NCBI RefSeq assembly: GCF_002105155.1
Contig: NW_019029001.1
Location: 579,845 to 643,844 of the forward strand
Direction of reading: 5' to 3'
Source: Lobosporangium transversale
Lineage: Eukaryota; Mortierellomycota; Mortierellomycetes; Mortierellales; Mortierellaceae
Length of the DNA: 64,000 bases
Of this stretch, positions 52,257 through 64,000 are shown one piece after another (within the stretch, counting starts at the first letter, position 1; each line of letters starts with the position of its first letter). The notes beneath the pieces are model-generated. The model was given only the letters and a program-made list of their open reading frames with translations, made no database searches and was not told the DNA's origin. The position numbers and the translations under genes were made by a program.

Positions 52257-52288
<32 letters not shown>

Positions 52289-52485
52289 ATAACAAGGACC
52301 CTCAGGGTCATGGGATTTATTTTCTACATTCTATGAACAAAATGCTCCAGAAACTATAGTCAATAAATAGCTATTACTGCACAAACGACAAGAGCCGCTG
52401 TATCCATGATTTCATAAACCCTGACCGCCGTGGTTGGTACTCAAAGTCCACCTTTCCGACGTGGCCTGTTGCGCAACGCGACAAA

Positions 52486-53871
52486 TTATCCGCTATCCAT
52501 AGTCATCAAAAACTTCATTCCACCTAGCCGCTCCATCACGTCCAGTTTGGCTTTCCCAAGGTAAATGTCCCGGACTCGGTCATCCGCGATCTTGTAGATC
52601 TCTTTTACATTCAGCTTCTGTCTTTGTCTGAGGGAAGGGACAAGGAAATCATTGCTACTACGTCTGTGCTCCCCAACACAGTTGCGTCCTCTGGCGCGTT
52701 TGCTCAAAGCAGTGATTCCACGAGCCTTTTCCCATTCAACGGTGACTTTACACCGTTTGTTCCAGATTTCTGTACGACCGAATTCCTCTATGGCCTTGAC
52801 GAAGCGCCCTGCCATATATGTAGCTATCCTTGTTGTTGTCTTGAAGCCAACTTTCCAACTCTGAGCAATGGACTTGGGCGTAAGTCCATGGTAAATGTCC
52901 TGCACAGACCAATCTGGTGTGTGCTCTCTCTCTTCCTCATCATCGCCGTTCCTATCACCACGGCGTCGTACTTCTCGCACACCATCGATATGCATCTCCA
53001 GAGTTCCCCAAATGTAGTCCTCCTCTGCCGCAGTAAAAGTTGGCTCTTTTGTCCTTGGTGGGTCTACACCTCTCTCTCTGGCCCTTTGTGCTTGCTCCTG
53101 CACTGCTTTCAACTCTTTCCTCCATGTCCTCTCCCCTATCACATTCACATTTTGGATTATCTCCTTCCACTTCTCGGCCTGAGTCTCCATCGTCCTTGGA
53201 CATCTCCAGATGTGCGATGTATCTTCATCCTCTGTCCCACACACTCTGCAGTTGCCGTCTTCATAAAGGTCCGGCCTCCAGTGTCTCATATATAACTGTG
53301 TAGGCAACATTCCATGGAGTTTCTTGATCCTGTGCGCTCGCTTTTGGCAGTCCGCTGGGCTGGTGAAGAGTCCTTTCGGTAGGTTGCTATCATGAACAAT
53401 GTTCATAGTAGCTCGCCAATCAATTTTTGTCCAATCCTTAACATGCTCCTGCATCCTGTTCTGAGCGATCCACGTGTGATGTGTACGAGTTGTTGACTGT
53501 AACTTAAGGATCTGCCTTAAGTCATCTTCCGCTGGTACACCGTTGAACTTTGCATGGCAGTACATGTCATTATGCTCCGTTATGTTGATATCCCATAGCT
53601 CGCCATAATGTCCATGTTTTGCTGCTTCGTCCGCTTCTTCGTTCCCTCGGTTGCCGGCATGTCCTTTGACCCACTCGACCGTGACTTCCGATCCTTGTTG
53701 AATAAATGCGTTGTGTATAGCTGCCCACCATACTGCATACGGTGATCTAATACGTTGTCGCAACGTGCTATCCACTCTGCCTCGGACCAATGCTCGGAAT
53801 TGAGTCATAACTGCGCTGTTATCAAGTCGGATTGTCATAGGTCTGTTTCGTAGGCTGATAAGTATTCCTGC

Positions 53872-53874
<3 letters not shown>
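52486..53874 (-). pseudogene. LINE X ORF2 C-terminal part: RNase H and zinc-knuckle-like region
   Basis: About 460 codons are open. The RNase H part shows TIRLDNSAVMTQF with a catalytic-type Asp, then VTVEWVKGHAGNRGNEEADEAAK with the conserved His and Asp of type I RNase H in retrotransposons. The following domain contains RAHRIKKLHGMLPTQLYMRHWRPDLY and a CCHC-like knuckle, CRVCGTEDEDTSHIWRCP. The end is RLGGMKFLMTMDSG. The N-terminal part of the RNase H (MAFGVVVQTQEGDFYTALSG ... STKAELAGLLAGILI) lies at 55349-55460, on the far side of the inserted LINE. The frame is broken by that insertion, and reverse transcriptase is not present in the window. Confidence 0.85.
53857..53874. repeat. Target-site duplication, left copy (18 bp)
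   Basis: GATAAGTATTCCTGCCAA, identical to 55349-55366. It flanks the inserted LINE and continues the X reading frame on both sides. Confidence 0.93.
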
Positions 53875-53905
<31 letters not shown>

Positions 53906-55348
53906 ATAACAAGGACCCACGAGGTCATGTAGGATTTATTTAGATGTTAGCTCTATAAATGGGTTGCCCCATTACTGGGGTCGCAAATAAAGCGGTATCC
54001 AATAATCGACCGAAGCCGCATCGTCATACTGCCACAGTACTACATCCTGTTCATAAACCACGTCAGCATTGAATAGACTTCCTTGGTCCCAGAGGACCTG
54101 TGGCACGGCTCTACTCCCTACTTGGCCTGTTGTGCGCGAAGGTCATCCTTTAGCCGCTGTCCTCAATCATCAAAAATTTACAGCTTTCCAGGCGCTCCAT
54201 AATCGCCAATTCCACCTGCTGCCGGTAGCTTTCCGCCACTCGCCGGTCTGCCTCAGTCCTGATCACCTTCACATCTGCTGTTCGTCGTTGTCCCTGGTGA
54301 GAGCCAAAGAATTCACCTCTGCTACGTCTGTGCCTCCCAACACAGTTGCGTCCCCTGGCGCGTTTGCTCACAGAGGTGATACCATTGTCTCTTTCCCAGT
54401 TGACGGTGACTTTGCAGCGTCTGTTCCAGATTTCAGTCCTGCCGAGTTCCTCGATTGACTTGACAAAGCGGCAAACAATGTACCTTGAGATCGATGCTGT
54501 GGTTCTGAAGATCGTCTTCCATTTTTGTATCAGTTCCTTCGGCACCAAACCGTGGTACAAGTCTTGGACAGTCCAGTGGGCATCCTCACCCTCGTTCCTC
54601 CGTCCCATATCCACATCTTCCTCACCAAACAGAGTGCTCGCATGTCGAATCTCTCTGACGCCCTTGAACATCGCTTCCAAAGAGCCCCAAATCACGTTGT
54701 CGGCTACAGGTGTAAACGAGGGGCCTCCTTTATTCAGGTTTGGCTCCTGTGTTTTCCCTTGTTTGTCTTCCCGGAGCTTCTTCTCCTTCACTAATGCTCT
54801 TTTGCCATCCTTCGTGATGAGTTCTATGGCCTGCTTCCAACCTTTCAATTGCTCGTCCAGTGTCATGGGACATCGCCAGAGGTGTTCTATGTCCTCCTGC
54901 TCCTGTTCACACATCCTGCAGATGTCAGTCTCATACAGGTCCGGTCGCCACTGCCTCATATAAGTGAGTGTAGGAAGCATGCCATGGACCTTTTTTATTC
55001 TGTGCGCTCTCTTGTGACAATCTGCTGGGCTGGTGAAGAGGCCTCTAGGCGTGTTGCCATCGTGAAGAATATGCAGGCTTGCTTTCCATTCTACTTCTCG
55101 CCAGTCTGCAATATAATTCCTGACTCTGTTCTGAGATGCCCACAAGTAATGTGTTCTCACTGCTGATTGGAGTTTTAGCAGGTGTCTAAGATCATCCTCC
55201 ACCACCTCGTTCTCGAAAATAGCGTGACAGCGCAGATCGTTGTGTTCCAGTCCTTTGATTGTCCACATTTCGCTAAAATGAGCATCTTTGGCGGCTTGGT
55301 CTGCCCTTATACTGCCTCTATTCCCAGCATGGCCCTTGACCCATTTCA
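53875..55348 (-). mobile_element. Inserted 5'-truncated LINE (sister subfamily) inside element X
   Basis: A 1474-bp insertion on the minus strand. Its 3' end is a 30-nt poly-A (T run 53875-53904) preceded by the same terminal motif as X. Its 5' end begins abruptly inside the RNase H coding region (LKWVKGHAGNRG). Perfect 18-bp direct repeats flank it, so this is a target-primed reverse transcription event into X. At protein level it is clearly diverged from X, so it belongs to a related but distinct subfamily. Confidence 0.9.
54150..55348 (-). pseudogene. ORF2 C-terminal fragment of the inserted LINE
   Basis: About 400 codons remain open from WVKGHAGNRG to the end, ESCKFLMIEDSG, without internal stops. 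It carries the same domain order as X: an RNase H tail, FTSPADCHKRAHRIKKVHGMLPTLTYMRQWRPDLYE, a CCHC-like knuckle CRMCEQEQEDIEHLWRCP, then RNCVGRHRRSRGEFFG. The RNase H front, reverse transcriptase and any ORF1 are absent because of 5' truncation, so the copy cannot act on its own. The open frame suggests a recent insertion. Confidence 0.85.
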
Positions 55349-55366
55349 GATAAGTATTCCTGCCAA
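55349..55366. repeat. Target-site duplication, right copy (18 bp)
   Basis: Identical to 53857-53874. Bases on either side differ, so the duplication is exactly 18 bp. Confidence 0.93.
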
Positions 55367-55499
55367 CAAACCAGCTAGCTCTGCCTTTGTCGAGGATGCG
55401 TTGCCTGCTACTCTACCAGATAGCGCAGTGTAAAAATCACCCTCTTGTGTCTGGACTACTACACCAAATGCCATATTTACTCTTTCAGTGCCAATATCT

Positions 55500-55519
55500 T
55501 AGTATTATTTAGAATCATT
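55500..55519. repeat. Target-site duplication of SINE-like insert, left copy (20 bp)
   Basis: TAGTATTATTTAGAATCATT, perfectly repeated at 56137-56156. Confidence 0.92.
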
Positions 55520-56136
55520 TTTTTTCCTGTTAACAAGAACCCACAGAGGTGAGGAATTTTATTTCATAATCTCGCTCTAAAGTAATGATATCGCCCTCAA
55601 CTATGAAACAAGCGAAACTCTCAAAGTTCGCACGGGATGGCTGTGAAGAGCCAATTCGTATCCATGTTTTTCTCTACCAATGTACACCGTGATCGGTACT
55701 CGAAGTCCATCCTTCCGATGTGGCCTGTTGCGCCCGTGAAAAGCCGCGGAGGCTGGCGTGCCGACTCTAGCTAAGGACGACTTTTAATTTTTTCTATTCG
55801 ATCAAATCCACTGGCATGTGGACCCAAATCTTGCGGGATTGGTCTGAAATTTCTACTTTGGACTCCTTCAAACTTTGTGATCATCGCTGTCCTAGTCAAG
55901 TGGATAGATGGGGATGTGCTGCCAGATGTACCGCTGGTTCGGCCGGGGGGTGGAATATATAGCTAAGACGTGTGCCCAGCCAGGCGACTTAGGGTAGTGC
56001 ACCCACGATCTTAGCCTTAGCGGAGAACACTAGGCTGTCTCGGAGAGAAAGTATAAAAACTCAAGCAAATCCCTGACCTGGCACATGTTTGCTTCACTTT
56101 ATGTGCCTTAACCAGGACTCGAACCCGGCCCCTGGG
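55520..56136 (-). mobile_element. tRNA-derived SINE-like element with LINE 3' tail
   Basis: A 617-bp insert bounded by perfect 20-bp direct repeats. On the minus strand its head is GGGGCC followed by GGGTTCGAGTCCTGG: a polymerase III B box that folds as a T-arm (CCGGG, loop TTCGAGT, CCTGG), then TTAAGGCA like an acceptor 3' strand. The tRNA 5' half is missing, so the copy is 5'-truncated. The body (~55740-56100) is unrelated to other sequence here. The last ~230 bp resemble the 3' UTR of LINE X (GCAACAGGCCACATCGGAA, GGACTTCGAGTACC and CATGGATACGAATTGGCTC, against X near 52428-52475). It ends CCTCTGTGGGTTCTTGTTAAC and a short A tail, like the LINE terminus. This suggests it moves with the LINE machinery. 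No coding frame. Confidence 0.8.
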
Positions 56137-56156
56137 TAGTATTATTTAGAATCATT
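56137..56156. repeat. Target-site duplication of SINE-like insert, right copy (20 bp)
   Basis: Identical to 55500-55519 and adjacent to the tRNA-like head of the insert. Confidence 0.92.
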
Positions 56157-56425
56157 ATCGTAACCCAAAACTACGAGGCTCTTGCCCAATTCTTCATATT
56201 CATCATTTACCTACTAGTTTTCAGAGATCACTAGTAGATGCACCACGACATCTGAAAAAATCACTGTCTTAAGAACCGGGGGTTTATACTGAGATGCCCT
56301 TAAAACCGCAACGAGACGCAAATACATAGAACACACTGAAGTGTTGTACCAAGATAAAGGTAAGGAACACTTCAGGGACGGAGAGTCCACTATTTATTAT
56401 AGCGGGGAGGATCGGGTGGCTGAGC
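56157..56425. other. Junction between LINE X and the gypsy element
   Basis: The part near 56157 probably still belongs to X, since it supplies the codons before YDNDSK. The part near 56425 is the gypsy 3' flank and may hold its LTR, but no second LTR copy exists in the window to define it. A perfect 9-bp inverted repeat (56337-56345 with 56366-56374) could form a hairpin. Confidence 0.45.
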
Positions 56426-59400
56426 TCACGTCCAGGCAGGACGGGGTGGGTTTGAGGGTACCACTATAGGTATACCTCTGGTCCTACCTACCATGACGTC
56501 ACTTGTTATAGGACGTGAGCTTAAGTTGCCTCGATTTAGGACAGACTCCCCACGAGAAATCCAAGCCGCCCCTGCGGCGTCAATCTTTGGATTGGGCCTT
56601 GAGAGGGAACGTGGTGGTCGCGCAGGAGGGGGCGATGCGGTAGCTGCGGGCCTTGCTGATGATGATGGGGCCGTTGTACGCGATGAACCTTCGAGGGGTA
56701 TGGGTTGCACTGCTGTACCTACTTCTGGCTCCGACTGAGGCCCTCGCTCGTCTTCTTCTTGAATGGTCTCCATGGGGATGGTGAGTTCATCGCGACTGTT
56801 GCGGGTTTTATACCATGCGCGCGTCGGTTCTGGACTACCCGCGGGTAGATTCACTGGTTTCAGACGGTCTTTATGCACAAGGTCCATTTTCGCTTTTCCA
56901 TCGGGCCAGATAAGCTTGTAGGCGCCAAAAGGGGTAATCGTCTCGACACGCAATGGTCCATACCAAGGGTATTCAAATTTCCTTTTCGCTATGTTTTTTA
57001 CTAAAACCCAGTCGCCAATCTCGTACACTTGCCTCGGAGCTTCGGGGTCGATGTCATGTCTCTCATTATACCTTTCCTCCATGAGCCTTGCGGCTTCCTG
57101 TTGCCGCTCCTCGTTTGATAGCCTCTCAAGTCTCAATCTTTCAAGCTCGGCCTCTCTCGCGGCTTGAACCTCTGTAAAAACCGCTCCATCGAATACATAA
57201 GGACGAGTGAGGTCGCCAGGTATCGTGGGCTCGATTCCATAGACTAGGTAGAATGGTGACTTCTTAGATACGCTATGTATTCTGGTGCGGCAGGCGAAAA
57301 GTGCCTGATCTAGAAAGAGGTCCCACTTGTGCTTCATCTTATCACCGACGTATTTTGTTAATGCGGCGCCGAGGATGCCATTAGTGCGTTCGGTTTTGCC
57401 ATTTGTGCGCGGGTGATACGCGGAGGTGAGCCGGTGTTTAACTTTCATCTTCTTAAGATATTCTCGCAGGACCTCTGACATGAACTGACTGCCTCTATCG
57501 GAAATCAGCTCTGCGGGGCAACCAAAGTTCATGACAATTTCCTCATAAATGAAATTTGAGACTGTCTCGGCAGTGGCGTCAGGCGTAGCTTTGGCTATTG
57601 TCCAGCTAGTGGCGTAATCTACAGCGACTATTATCCACATGTTTCCATTCTTAGTCTTGGGACAGCGTCCGATGAAATCGATACCCCAGCGTTGGAAGGG
57701 TTTAGCCACCGAGAAAGTGTGGAGAGGTTCGGTGACCGTTGCTCCTCCGCGAGTCAGCTGGCATTCCTTGCAAGTACGGCATGCTTCTTGAATGCTCTCA
57801 CGCATACGAGGCCACCAATATCTAGGCTGGATGCGTTCAAATAAGCCTTGCACACCGGGGTGTCCCATACTTTCATGCATTTTGGCCATGTAATCTGCGC
57901 GCCGAGCGAAATTTAAAAATTCTACTTGCGTATCACCCATCACTCTAAACACTTTCCCGTCTTCCACCACAAAATTATCCTCTTCCTCCCTCATTAAACC
58001 TAGGAAATCCTGGTGTGCGGGGTCAGCGAGGGTGCCCGTTTCCTTATACTCGACCATTAATAGAGGCCAATCCATATCTTCCAATGTCTCGTCAAACTCT
58101 GCCTCTTCCATGGCCATCAATAATGCCTCCTCGAACGCCTCAACACCTGCGTCGTGGTTACTCTCTTTTATTCCGAGCTCCCCGTTGGCGAGTTCCATGA
58201 AGTTGCAGGTGACGTCCTTGGTATTCTCCTCATTAGGCCTAGAAAGAGCATCGGCAACAGGGTTATCCTTGCCCGGACGATAGATGATAACATGATCTTG
58301 TTGCTCCATGTGTTGGCTCCATCCCGCCATGCGTCTGCTCATGCCTTTTTGTCGTTTTAAGAACACCAAACTGTGATTGTCGGTCAAGATGTTGACTGTT
58401 CTGCCCTGGATATAAGTACGCCATTCGTCGCAAGCGCGCACAATTGCATACAATTCGCGCTCATGTGTTGGCCATTTCTGCTGACCCTCATCTAATTTCC
58501 TCGACATGAAAGCGATAGGGTGCATTTCCTTCCGGCCGTTTGAACCAAAGTCCTGACTCAGGACGGCACCAATGGCAGTGAGGGACGCATCAGTCTCGAT
58601 GAAAAAGGGGCGAGAAAAATCGGCAAGGCGTAGAACGGGAGCTGAGGCGAGGGCTTGCTTGAGGTCGTCGAAGGCAGCTTGTTCTCTCTCGCCCCACGGC
58701 GAGGGGAGAGGTCTGGTCTTGATTTTGTTGTTGTCTTTTTCTTTTGTGAGATCTGTGAGGGGAGCGGCCCGAGAGGCATAATTTTTAATAAATTTGCGGT
58801 AGTAGCCAGCCATACCTAAAAATCGACGAACCTCTTGAACATTGGTGGGCGCCGTCAATGATTGGATGCTTTCTGTCTTTGAGGGGTCGACTTTCAAGCC
58901 TTCACCGCTCACAACGTGGCCTAAGAAGAGGAGTTCAGGCTTGCCGAATTCGCATTTGGACATCTTGACCTTGAGTTGATATTTCGCCAGACGTTCAAGT
59001 ACCCAACGCAAATGTTCCTTATGGTCCTCAGGGTTGCGACTGAATACTAGGATATCATCCATGAAGACTAAACAAAATTTATCTAGACCGCCTTGCAGAA
59101 CTTCATTCATCATCCCCTGGAAGGACGCAGGTGCGTTAGTCAAACCAAAAGGCATCACCAAATATTCAAAGTGACCATAGCGGGTACCAAAAGCGGTCTT
59201 TTCCACGTCGCTGGGGTTAACTCGAATCTGATTGAAGCCTGATTGCAAATCGAGTTTAGAAAACTCGGTTGCACCTGAGAGTCGGTCGAAGAATTCATCA
59301 ATGAGTGGCAGAGGGTACTTATTCTTGACGGTAATTGCATTGAGCGCGCGGTAGTCTACACACAGACGGAGGCTTCCGTCTTTCTTCCTAGCGAATACAA

Positions 59401-60842: not shown

Positions 60843-60961
60843 ATATTAGAAGTCAAGGAGATCAAAAGTTGTTTTTATTATTGTCAAACGAGAGCCTTTT
60901 ATCAAGGACTCTCTATGACCGTCACATGATATTCTGACCTTTTGAATAAAGAATTAATCTA
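60843..60961. other. Short flank between gypsy and the DNA transposon
   Basis: About 120 bp without coding character. In the gypsy frame there is a stop at its edge, so gag does not continue here. Confidence 0.4.
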
Positions 60962-60975
60962 TTTGACAACCCGGG

Positions 60976-61010
60976 TTGTCACTCTTATTTGACAACCCCC
61001 CCCCTTAATT
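60976..61010 (+). repeat. Outer terminal inverted repeat, left
   Basis: TTGTCACTCTTATTTGACAA followed by nine C and TTAATT. It is the reverse complement of the window's last ~34 bases, differing in the length of the C run and by one base after it. Confidence 0.88.
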
Positions 61011-61035
61011 ATTTTTCTCAATTTTTTTTCTTTGC

Positions 61036-61058
61036 GTGACAACCCGGGTTGCCAAATA
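61036..61058. repeat. TTTGACAACCC palindrome variant
   Basis: GTGACAACCCGGGTTGCCAA, an imperfect inverted dimer of the half-site found throughout the element ends. Confidence 0.85.
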
Positions 61059-61548
61059 GTAAAATATCTAATTTGACAACCCCAAGCTCACTATTATTTG
61101 ACAACCCTTTTTTTATTGGCAAGATTATTATGTGAAAATCGTTTCTATTGCTATCCCTCAGCAACACGAAATCCCTCCAGCAATCTAAAAGCTTCCATCA
61201 AATAACAAACTTTTTTTTTTTGGTTACGAGATGTTGTTTTTTTATTACAACTGATTTCTAAAACAAGGGTTGCTTTTATAGAAAATGTGCCTATACGGGT
61301 AACATGCACTAAGGGGTTTTTTTGGATATATAAGCATGCATAAATTCGGAGTGGTTATGCGACGCTTGATGGCGCATGCGTAAGACGCGGAAAGGAAAAA
61401 AAAGAGAGACAGAAGAAGCTATAACCACAGTCATGATAATGGAGTGTTGTCACCATTTTAGAAATCCAGCTGAGAAAGGCTCTCCATAAGTACAAGAGGG
61501 TGAAGACTTGTCATGTGACAGGTTGAAAAAGACAGTTTTTCTTCTTTT

Positions 61549-61570
61549 TTTGACAACCCGGGTTGTCAAA
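61549..61570. repeat. Perfect 22-bp palindrome of TTTGACAACCC
   Basis: The half-site TTTGACAACCC is followed directly by its own complement. The next two bases are the TA target of the inner transposon. Confidence 0.95.
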
Positions 61571-61572
61571 TA

Positions 61573-61609
61573 GAGTCCTCGCCAAAAAGTCATAAACTGG
61601 ATATATTTT
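61573..61609 (+). repeat. Inner TIR, left (37 bp)
   Basis: The reverse complement of 63874-63910 without mismatch; the next bases differ (TTC against ACA). Confidence 0.95.
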
Positions 61610-61617
61610 TCAGGCTT

Positions 61618-63726
61618 TTAAATTGAATAGAATACTTCCACTTTTAGACGCAGGAAAAATACGTACAAACTCAAAATTTTAATTTTTACGAGAGCGTTTT
61701 CGATAAGAGGCTCGTCCTCAGACTCGCTATCCTCTATCACATTAAACATGCTTCCAGCATCTAGCGTAAGATCCACTATCTCAGGGCCTAGGGTAACAGC
61801 TTCAGCTCGCTCTTGATTTAGTACTCTAATGAGTTCTGCATCCCACTCACTATTGTCGACTTTGAAAGTGTCACTAAGGTCCACAATAGGCTCGTTTTCA
61901 TCAAAAACCTCTTGATAAACCTCTTCGACTATTTCTTCCTGTGCATGACTCCTCTCGTTATAGTATCTCATGCCAATTTTCACAGACTTCTTCCATACAG
62001 AGTAAAAGACTTTACACGGAATCTGGGAAAACAAGCTTAGTAGCCTTTTTTTCAGCAAGATGGATGTCATTGTCACCATTGCTCTCGAGGCAATTATGTT
62101 TTTCACAACTGCCCAGATCTTCTCAATAGGTTGTAGCTCGCAATGGTAGGGTGGAGTCTTGAGGATTTCATGTCCACCATTCTCCTGGGCTATTTTACTG
62201 ATAGAGAAATACGACTCATCAGGAAGAGCGTTAACCAATTCCATAAGCTCGTTTTTGTTCAGTGCTTTTCCATTTTCCCTTGTTGGAATAACAATCTCCT
62301 TGCCCGTGAGCCACTCTTTGATAGTTTTCACAGTGTCGCTCTTGGTTGGTTTCCTGTTTTTCTTGTGAAAGTGATATGAAGCGCCATCAAGATGGATTTT
62401 ACAAGGGCCAAGTCCCATCTTATTGAGATTCTCACAAAGTCGCTTAAAGATACTATCGAACAAACTAGCGTTGAAGTTTCCATGATAATCGTGATCTGTT
62501 GCCACGACCCCTGCATTCCTGATCTCCTCAGGTACGTCATCCCACAGTTCAGCCTCCTGCTCTTGGCCTTTTTTTGATTGAGGCTTTGGTCCCTTTGATG
62601 GCCAAACATACACGCTATCATTAACGAATTTGCCTTCAACCTTTTTAGCAGCTTCATCATAATATACAATGAAGGCTGCAAATATAACCATGATTGGTTT
62701 CCTTCCTGCATCGTTAATGACACCACCGCCACTTTGCACCCAACGTCTTGCTGCAGCATGGTCAATGTGGCAGTAAGACTCGTCCAAGAAGACCTCTGGA
62801 GTCCTAGGCACCCAACTGCCGTCTACTAGTTTTAAATTCTTAAGACGGCGCTTCAGGTAAGTAGCTCGGAAGGCAATATTCTCCTTGGAGTCGTGCAAAA
62901 AGTTCTGTCGGATCCCTTTACCCCAATACAGTCCCATTTTACGGAGGTCGCGAGTGATTGATCTTGCTGATCTGTCGATTTCAAAGTCTTCTTTCAGTTG
63001 GTTTGCAATTAAACCCGCAGAATTAGGAGTCCCGCTCTTGTTTGATTCAACTATGATATTCAGCACCTTCGAGTTTAAATCCTTGTCCGCTTCTTTTTTA
63101 GGGCGTCCAGTTCTTCCTCGCCCTGTCATTTCGACGATGCCTGTTTGTGCATATTTAATTGCTGCCACACAAGTGTTTCTCCCTACACCCATCAGAATCG
63201 AAAGGTCCATTGCTCTGTTGTCTGTCTTCTTAAACCAGTCTTGGACTGCTGGTGGCGCATTCATTATAGCATTATATGTATGAGCTATTATCGCGTATTC
63301 GTCTTTAGTAACGGACGCTTTACTGCGTGTAAATGCCTTTTTTCTCTCTCCAGTTTGTTTGTCTGACAAGAATGGATTTAAATCGAGGGTATTGGGACGC
63401 TCACCGAATTGCTCTAATGAGGTAGAACTCCTTGGCTCGTTTCTGGGAGGAGTAATCCATTGATATTCGGTAGGAGACCTAATAGGGGAGAGATCGGCTT
63501 CAGTGGGCAGTTGTGGCGATCTTCGAGGCGGAGTGAAGGGTGTGCCTGAAATCATTTGGTCGATATTTCCTTCGCTATACCAACCACCAAGATCGTTGTA
63601 TGAGAGTAGGTTATTGATATCAAAAGGGAAAGACATTTTACTATCTGAAGATTGCGAATAAAGTAGGTTGACAATGAGGATGAGATCGAGAATGAGATTG
63701 AGAATGATGTTGCCCATTTCTCGCAA
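61618..63726 (-). CDS. DDE transposase of Tc1/mariner-IS630 superfamily
   Basis: 702 codons from the first Met, or 672 from the Met of MSFPFDINN at 63636, which I prefer because the leading 30 residues are a spurious hydrophobic stretch. After ~110 Pro/Ser-rich residues come helix-turn-helix regions (RAMDLSILMGVGRNTCVAAI, then GRGRTGRPKKEAD, an AT-hook-like GRPKK). The catalytic core shows Asp315 in EVFLDESYCHIDHA, Asp447 in KIHLDGASYHFH and Glu535 in PPYHCELQPIEKIWAVVKN (numbering from the first Met). The second Asp to Glu spacing is ~87 residues, against about 34-40 in classic Tc1/mariner, due to a charged insert. An acidic C-terminal tail of ~120 residues follows. No frameshift or stop. 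Confidence 0.9.
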   Translation of the reverse strand: MREMGNIILNLILDLILIVNLLYSQSSDSKMSFPFDINNLLSYNDLGGWYSEGNIDQMISGTPFTPPRRSPQLPTEADLSPIRSPTEYQWITPPRNEPRSSTSLEQFGERPNTLDLNPFLSDKQTGERKKAFTRSKASVTKDEYAIIAHTYNAIMNAPPAVQDWFKKTDNRAMDLSILMGVGRNTCVAAIKYAQTGIVEMTGRGRTGRPKKEADKDLNSKVLNIIVESNKSGTPNSAGLIANQLKEDFEIDRSARSITRDLRKMGLYWGKGIRQNFLHDSKENIAFRATYLKRRLKNLKLVDGSWVPRTPEVFLDESYCHIDHAAARRWVQSGGGVINDAGRKPIMVIFAAFIVYYDEAAKKVEGKFVNDSVYVWPSKGPKPQSKKGQEQEAELWDDVPEEIRNAGVVATDHDYHGNFNASLFDSIFKRLCENLNKMGLGPCKIHLDGASYHFHKKNRKPTKSDTVKTIKEWLTGKEIVIPTRENGKALNKNELMELVNALPDESYFSISKIAQENGGHEILKTPPYHCELQPIEKIWAVVKNIIASRAMVTMTSILLKKRLLSLFSQIPCKVFYSVWKKSVKIGMRYYNERSHAQEEIVEEVYQEVFDENEPIVDLSDTFKVDNSEWDAELIRVLNQERAEAVTLGPEIVDLTLDAGSMFNVIEDSESEDEPLIENALVKIKILSLYVFFLRLKVEVFYSI

Positions 63727-63873
63727 ATTCTAATATTTCTAATTAAAAACGAAGATTGAATTGGTTTGGTGGCCATGCATCTAATTCATTCCTTCTATTC
63801 AAAAAATATATGCATTTTTGTCTTCGTACGTAAATTTTTATTTTTCAAATTTTTAATTCAAATTGAGTATTGT

Positions 63874-63910
63874 AAAATATATCCAGTTTATGACTTTTTG
63901 GCGAGGACTC
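63874..63910 (-). repeat. Inner TIR, right (37 bp)
   Basis: The mate of 61573-61609, followed by the TA duplication. Confidence 0.95.
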
Positions 63911-63965
63911 TAACAAAAAAGTGAAAATTGAAGACCTGGGTTGCCAAATAAGCCGGTGTGACTGC

Positions 63966-64000
63966 TAAATTAGGGGGGGGTTGTCAAATAAGAGTGACAA
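63966..64000 (-). repeat. Outer terminal inverted repeat, right (cut by window end)
   Basis: Ends GTCAAATAAGAGTGACAA. By symmetry with the left end, about 15-20 more bases (CCC plus the other half-site) are expected just beyond the window. Confidence 0.85.

Follow-up and report, generated by a model that had tools for sequence, protein, structure and literature searches.

Is the 617-bp non-coding insert that lies beside a cluster of LINE fragments in Lobosporangium transversale DNA a SINE, and if it is, which element moves it and what decides where it lands? The insert was found in a stretch of 64,000 nucleotides, referred to here as the window, and a sequence-only reading had described it as a 5'-truncated copy of a fungal SINE, with a head that starts in a tRNA T-arm and carries a Pol III box B, a private body, a LINE-like end and perfect 20-bp TSDs on either side. 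The flanking repeats are identical, the head does begin in a T-arm with a box B that scores 11/11, and the truncation is evident from complete copies elsewhere in the genome, which add 46 nt at the 5' end. The A-run of the window copy, at 55520-55525, runs on into the TSD. The features of the window and the joints between SINE and LINE sequences found across the genome are collected in Table 1.

Table 1. Features of the window (positions count from its first letter) and candidate SINE-LINE joints elsewhere in the genome (by locus).
Feature	Position or locus	Strand	Basis or detail
SINE copy, 5'-truncated, without first 46 nt of head	55520..56136	-	TSDs, genome copies
TSD, 20 bp, 3' side of SINE	55500..55519	.	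TAGTATTATTTAGAATCATT
TSD, 20 bp, 5' side of SINE	56137..56156	.	TAGTATTATTTAGAATCATT, identical copy
Pol III box B, GGTTCGAGTCC, 11/11	56115..56125	-	
SINE tail common to LINE-1 3' UTR	55531..55742	-	alignment
LINE-1 3' UTR matching SINE tail	52290..52484	-	alignment and best 40 of 161 genome candidates
3' portion of LINE-1, with 3' UTR and the ORF2 end that encodes RNase H	52288..53873	-	
Further 5' piece of same LINE-1, separated by nested LINE-2 copy	55356..55500	-	
3' portion of LINE-2, lying inside LINE-1 and oriented like it	53901..55355	-	
Remnant of LTR-like repeat family B	56137..56253	.	elsewhere starts 13-34 bp from tRNA genes
Repeat family A, interpreted as LTR of adjoining Ty3-like element	56254..56545	.	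single copy within window
SINE-LINE joint	L104		SINE 1-131 on LINE-1 5' UTR
SINE-LINE joint	L052=L054		about 22 nt of SINE head on same LINE-1 start as L104
SINE-LINE joint	L065		SINE 1-170 with LINE-1
SINE-LINE joint	L123		SINE 1-166 on LINE-2 5' UTR
SINE-LINE joint	L124		SINE 1-34 with internal LINE-2
SINE-LINE joint	L129=L130		SINE 1-112 with LINE-2, two places

The insert is not alone. A search of the organism's own genome (42.7 Mb in 127 contigs; best 40 of 117 candidates scored) gave at least 44 matches on many contigs, of which at least 40 are near full length. Four short or partial matches, additional SINE pieces within L030 and L036, stand outside these 40 copies, and duplicated-looking regions (C37:403k/C96:155k and C34:298k/C114:78k; L044=L045, L022=L040) leave about 38 independent ones. 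Pairwise identity among the 40 averages 99.1% with a minimum of 96.9% (780 pairs), indicating a young family. The complete element is about 663 nt long plus poly(A), short, non-coding, dispersed and present in many copies with an A-rich 3' end and TSDs. These TSDs were resolved with an exact-match script in 29 of the 40 copies and measure 18-21 bp in 27, 17 bp in one and 13 bp in another; among the other 11, eight yielded none and three yielded poly(A) artefacts. No common motif was seen when the TSD sequences were inspected by eye.

The complete copies supply the box A that the window copy lacks. Scored against the familiar consensus of the Pol III promoter boxes, box A reaches 11/12 at nt 7-18 and box B 11/11 at nt 58-68, and the genome has 62 occurrences of the box-B head and 55 of the box-A head (up to two mismatches; none for a reversed-pattern control). 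Among 39 tRNAs of the same genome the head is most like tRNA-Thr-TGT, with a score of 21.5 where 300 mononucleotide shuffles reached 13.1 at most, yet the Rfam tRNA model gave no match at E<=10. By its sequence, the element is best described as a SINE family, putatively tRNA-derived, whose tRNA-like head contains predicted A and B boxes. An internal T5 run at nt 124-128 could stop Pol III transcription early.

The tail connects the SINE to its neighbor. Within the window, blastn matched merely 47 bp of the SINE (87%) to the LINE 3' UTR, and a gapped search with a full SINE copy (L037) against a LINE-1 copy (L098) gave 66.5% identity over 218 bp (E 3e-18). The window SINE tail aligns locally with the 3' UTR of the window LINE-1 with a score of 54, compared with a mean of 10.8 and a maximum of 19 in 500 dinucleotide shuffles. 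The matching part is the last ~215 nt, close to the ~230 terminal bases first proposed, and the body is indeed private, scoring 10 against the LINE-1 3' UTR and matching none of the LINE segments compared. SINE and LINE-1 are a pair with significant 3' similarity in the same genome, and the reading of the insert as a fungal SINE copy is supported by its copies, head, TSDs and tail alike. To LINE-2 the SINE is similar in the last ~55 nt alone (score 21, shuffle maximum 17). A conserved hairpin at the 3' end was considered for the SINE and LINE tails and rejected (SINE z 0.29, its fold being equalled or surpassed in stability by 119 of 200 shuffles; LINE-1 z -1.07; LINE-2 z -1.54).

LINE-1 encodes an APE endonuclease, a reverse transcriptase (RT) and RNase H, and its ORF1 has a weak RRM match below the cut-off. 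LINE-2 shares 56-64% identity with it across the RT region, judged from six long matches, and its ORF1 has an RRM match at the cut-off and a CCHC match below it. RT relatives comprise 18 proteins, among them some from Mortierellaceae and Geosiphon, and a third related LINE sequence lies near a tRNA-Ile gene (L107).

The surroundings of the SINE copies lie outside the insert itself and beyond anything the sequence-only reading had claimed. A tRNA gene is located on the 5' side of 37 of the 40 copies, and is divergent from the SINE in all 37; together these tRNAs represent 17 isotypes. It lies within the 300-bp flank in 23 copies and within 575 bp in 11 more (34 in total); for three others it is found at 5.9-8.2 kb, with an RVT_1 match in between. 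No tRNA was found for the remaining three, namely the window copy, which is at a contig end, L015 and L047. The distance could be measured in 21 copies whose head is complete and whose flank contains a tRNA (L031 and L042 were excluded as they have no head start), and in 17 of these the SINE starts 125-132 bp from the 5' end of the mature tRNA (mean 128.1 bp, SD 1.9); the remaining four stand at 140-163 bp. L022 and L040 are apparently one duplicated locus, which leaves 16 independent copies at 125-132 bp. The SD of the 17 is smaller from the tRNA 5' end than from the 3' end (3.8), which suggests that the distance is set from that side of the Pol III complex where the start site lies, although the contrast comes largely from two long tRNAs (Leu and Ser).

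A test on coordinates used 55 SINE heads and the best 63 of 1628 tRNA candidates. Twelve of the 55 heads lie 125-130 bp from a tRNA, where 0.0005 were expected for 123-134 bp, and 19 lie within 300 bp, where 0.05 were expected. A listed tRNA occurs within 10 kb of 24 heads, and each of these 24 is divergent from it and on its 5' side. The DNA between SINE and tRNA varies, consisting of one of five families of LTR-like repeats or of none that is recognised. The SINE/LINE pair, judged by position, looks targeted to tRNA genes, presumably with the involvement of a host factor and of mobilisation by LINE-1. Five matches to 5S rRNA genes lie on C20, C22, C27 and C29, contigs that carry none of these SINE heads, and are too few to judge such genes as targets.

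CACGTG was considered as the ruler for this distance and dropped, the SINE distance being the same where repeats displace the motif. It occurs within 130 bp upstream of 21 of 31 tRNA genes that have no recognised LTR-like repeat (e.g., L098, L032, L037, L127), mostly at 44-83 bp, where mononucleotide shuffling predicts 0.43, and is a possible shared promoter element of tRNA genes. One of the tRNA loci (L011, C51:904787-904859) is tRNA-Lys-like with anticodon CTA, possibly an amber-reading tRNA.

The LINEs are found on the same side of tRNA genes. In a set of 30 tRNA genes selected by tRNA score alone, 21 have a SINE or LINE within 1.5 kb upstream and three have one downstream, and every matched base upstream points away from the tRNA. 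Counts at tRNA loci were made without the exact-match TSD script, which caught some insertions only. LINE-1 in L067 begins 127 bp from its tRNA. Among the LINE-1 tails (best 40 of 161), a listed tRNA is found within 9 kb of 13; eleven of the 13 lie on its 5' side in divergent orientation, and two do not have this arrangement. The fixed upstream distance and opposite orientation hold for the SINE, and for the LINEs it is mainly the orientation that does; few LINE 5' ends are verified by TSDs, which makes the precise distance less certain for the LINEs than for the SINE.

Closer to the tRNA genes lies a second kind of repeat. The LTR-like repeats of the five families start 8-34 bp upstream of the tRNA in at least 31 of 62 distinct upstream regions, as in L011, L014, L023, L036 and L009; regions alike in their first 150 bp were counted once, and the exact repeat patterns used miss some repeats (e.g., L004). 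Only family A of the five is found beside a Ty3-like frame, and the window has such repeats at 56137-56545. On the other side, downstream of tRNA-Thr in L060, L061 and L077, a direct repeat TATTTGGCAGCCCA has its copies spaced by ~445-511 bp, and in L060 and L077, the loci read out, a TTATC-A(n) tail precedes the second of them; this is perhaps another retroelement on the tRNA 3' side.

The window can be placed within this arrangement. Its LINE-2 lies inside LINE-1 and the SINE to the right of both, all three on the minus strand, and the SINE sits in family B at the place where, by eye, L014 and L024 carry the SINE 132 and 128 bp from a tRNA. ARAGORN found no tRNA gene in the window; 29 calls at the window end, obtained with loosened thresholds and mostly intron-bearing, were discarded. 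Repeat family A stands between the stack and its presumed tRNA anchor, and to the right a Ty3-like element and a DDE transposon extend up to the contig end. We infer that the window cluster is a tRNA-anchored stack, cut off by a later Ty3-like insertion and the end of the contig. The stretch at 60960-64000 bears DDE_3, has TTGTCAAATAAGAGTGACAA-like ends and lies beside the Ty3-like frame, and the contig ends in that repeat.

Standard SINE copies do not enter LINE coding sequence, consistent with the earlier view that the element is more than a rearranged LINE, although a few heads are joined to or interrupted by a LINE. There are six candidate fusion joints, in which the SINE part is 5' and the LINE part 3'. 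At four of these loci (L104, L129, L130 and L065) a LINE merely nested in a SINE is disfavoured because no SINE remainder follows the LINE tail, the search at L065 covering 1.5 kb. The order of the parts is a candidate outcome of template switching during reverse transcription, as expected from such a process, and the joints hint at machinery common to the SINE and the LINEs. The fused copies may, however, have originated by recombination, since no TSDs were seen around those examined. At L129/L137 and L130/L138 (C35:740k and C44:75k) the same joint of SINE 1-112 with LINE-2 is present, with 5' flanks that are alike and 3' flanks that differ, and this fused element may itself have moved. The joint at L104, at SINE nt 131, is just behind the T5 run. 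A further candidate, L125, was dropped, as a box-B head ~2 kb behind it (C119:32164) suggests a LINE-2 nested in a SINE. In L103/L056 a short LINE tail of ~22 nt plus poly(A), with its own TSD, is inserted in a SINE head as a near-minimal insertion. In eight fetched LINE 5' ends (L119-L122, L126-L128 and L131) no SINE head is directly joined.

It is likely that the insert belongs to a tRNA-derived SINE whose tail is recognised by LINE-1, and perhaps by LINE-2, and which is delivered ~128 bp upstream of tRNA genes. The SINE would probably be transcribed by Pol III from its own boxes A and B, starting at GCCCAATGG. LINE-1, and perhaps LINE-2 too, would then recognise the common 3' tail, as the homology suggests and the joints lend support to. 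Insertion would proceed by target-primed reverse transcription, and the TSDs, the 5' truncation and the poly(A) end that were observed fit this process. Delivery would be to a point ~128 bp upstream of the tRNA, with the SINE directed away from it, as position and orientation show, and would most likely be brought about by a LINE protein that touches either the Pol III initiation complex (TFIIIB/TFIIIC) or a nucleosome positioned by that complex. Because new copies would insert at a constant distance from the tRNA, one-way stacks may build up in which the newest copy is closest to the tRNA, in keeping with the common orientation and the nesting.

The rival that survives best accepts the target and is unlikely, though it carries some weight: neither LINE-1 nor LINE-2 would move the SINE, but an additional LINE that has escaped notice. 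An identity of just 66.5% between its tail and LINE-1 leaves room for such a partner, as do the likeness of the last ~55 nt to LINE-2 (21 against a shuffle maximum of 17), the third related LINE near tRNA-Ile, and fusions that, having no visible TSD, could come from recombination. Weighing against it, the SINE head is found joined to LINE-1 as well as to LINE-2, and such joints are most simply derived from one reverse-transcription reaction.

Far less probable is an indirect route, in which LTR elements target tRNA starts and the SINE prefers a site within the LTRs. Several SINE copies do use the same site in repeat A as their TSD (e.g., TTGTACCAAGATAAAGGTC), but the distance is the same across five LTR-like families and in DNA where none is recognised (L018, L032 and L037), this route is contradicted by copies that stand 125-132 bp from a tRNA without a recognised LTR in between, and the TSDs share no motif by eye. 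Slightly more doubtful still is the proposal that what looks like a SINE is a LINE with an internal deletion or rearrangement. That the element's tail is common to LINE-1 and part of its head is found at the 5' end of some LINEs would be accounted for in this way; against this, the body has no counterpart in the LINE segments compared, the head joints fall at differing SINE positions and on two LINE families, the eight fetched LINE 5' ends lack a directly joined head, and one structure is common to at least 40 copies. The least credible proposal is that insertion is random and selection keeps copies in gene-poor DNA near tRNA genes, for although tRNA flanks are often safe places for insertions and LTR-like families are found there too (at least 31 of 62 upstream regions), this leaves unexplained the 128.1 ± 1.9 bp spacing in 17 of 21 copies, the single orientation shared by all 37 copies that have a tRNA, and the downstream scarcity (3/30 versus 21/30 upstream), and the family is young (99.1% mean identity).

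The proposed delivery of the SINE by a LINE of its own genome to a point upstream of tRNA genes combines elements that are each known: SINEs, LINEs and Pol III targeting are familiar, and it is their combination and the -128 position that appear new. No report of a fungal SINE or LINE at tRNA genes was found in the open-licence literature, including that on Mortierella and Lobosporangium, or in the available portions of PMC10886601, PMC13269885 and PMC4700185. This is likely to be the first SINE, and these the first fungal LINEs, with a molecular ruler upstream of tRNA genes, the targeting being inherited from the LINE and the LTR and non-LTR elements occupying distinct niches, at ~-15 and ~-128, in front of the same tRNA genes. 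As an independent case in an early-diverging fungus, with a different and very exact distance, the pair offers a comparison of how Pol III genes are found, and raises the question of whether a SINE can take over the target choice of its partner. Targeting of this kind may explain the build-up of insertions near tRNA genes in Lobosporangium transversale, and it provides a natural integration site that is defined by distance from a promoter and not by sequence.

SIDEs, non-LTR elements that use R2, insert at a fixed place close to RNA genes. Dewa of zebrafish, located in a tRNA-Leu spacer (PMC3706591, as far as its available text goes), likewise has a fixed target near RNA genes, but it occupies one spacer, whereas the distance found here holds across 17 tRNA isotypes. 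Pairs of SINEs and LINEs with a common 3' tail are also established, with 58 such SINEs counted in PMC3747384; the tail is common to the LINE 3' end there as it is here, where it has diverged (66.5%), and the accessible sections of that paper do not mention an inherited Pol III-gene target. The fungal SINEs Mg-SINE, Foxy, Egr1 and AfuSINE2 are ~0.47-0.9 kb long, and older fungal families have 11 to ~160 copies (PMC5063351). Compared by description, those so described are tRNA-derived, as the Lobosporangium SINE probably is, and the accessible part of PMC5063351 mentions neither tRNA-gene targeting nor a partner LINE.

The closest parallels are found in amoebae. In the available part of a 2018 review (PMC5911963), tRNA-targeted non-LTR elements are listed for dictyostelid amoebae only, hosts that differ from the fungus described here. 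TRE5-A of Dictyostelium and NLTR-B of Polysphondylium are also non-LTR elements that insert at a set distance upstream of tRNA genes, and TRE5 has the same opposite orientation to the tRNA as the Lobosporangium SINE; the table of that review names no SINE partner for TRE5-A or NLTR-B. Their distances are 40-54 or 39-64 bp upstream versus ~128 bp for the SINE, so that the 128.1 ± 1.9 bp seen in 17 of 21 copies does not match the TRE5-type 40-54 bp. TRE5-A has a zinc finger where the Lobosporangium LINEs have RNase H, which NLTR-B has as well (PMC5911963); by domain content (APE, RT and RNase H) the Lobosporangium LINEs lack the APE-RT-zinc finger ORF2 of the TRE lineage. A further trait of TRE5-type elements is an ORF1 that binds TFIIIB. 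Within fungi, Ty3, Tj1, Tyl6 and other LTR elements target Pol III genes, as the elements studied here appear to do, and these LTR elements stay close to the start site (PMC5911963), which is like the LTR-like repeats at 8-34 bp and unlike the SINE.
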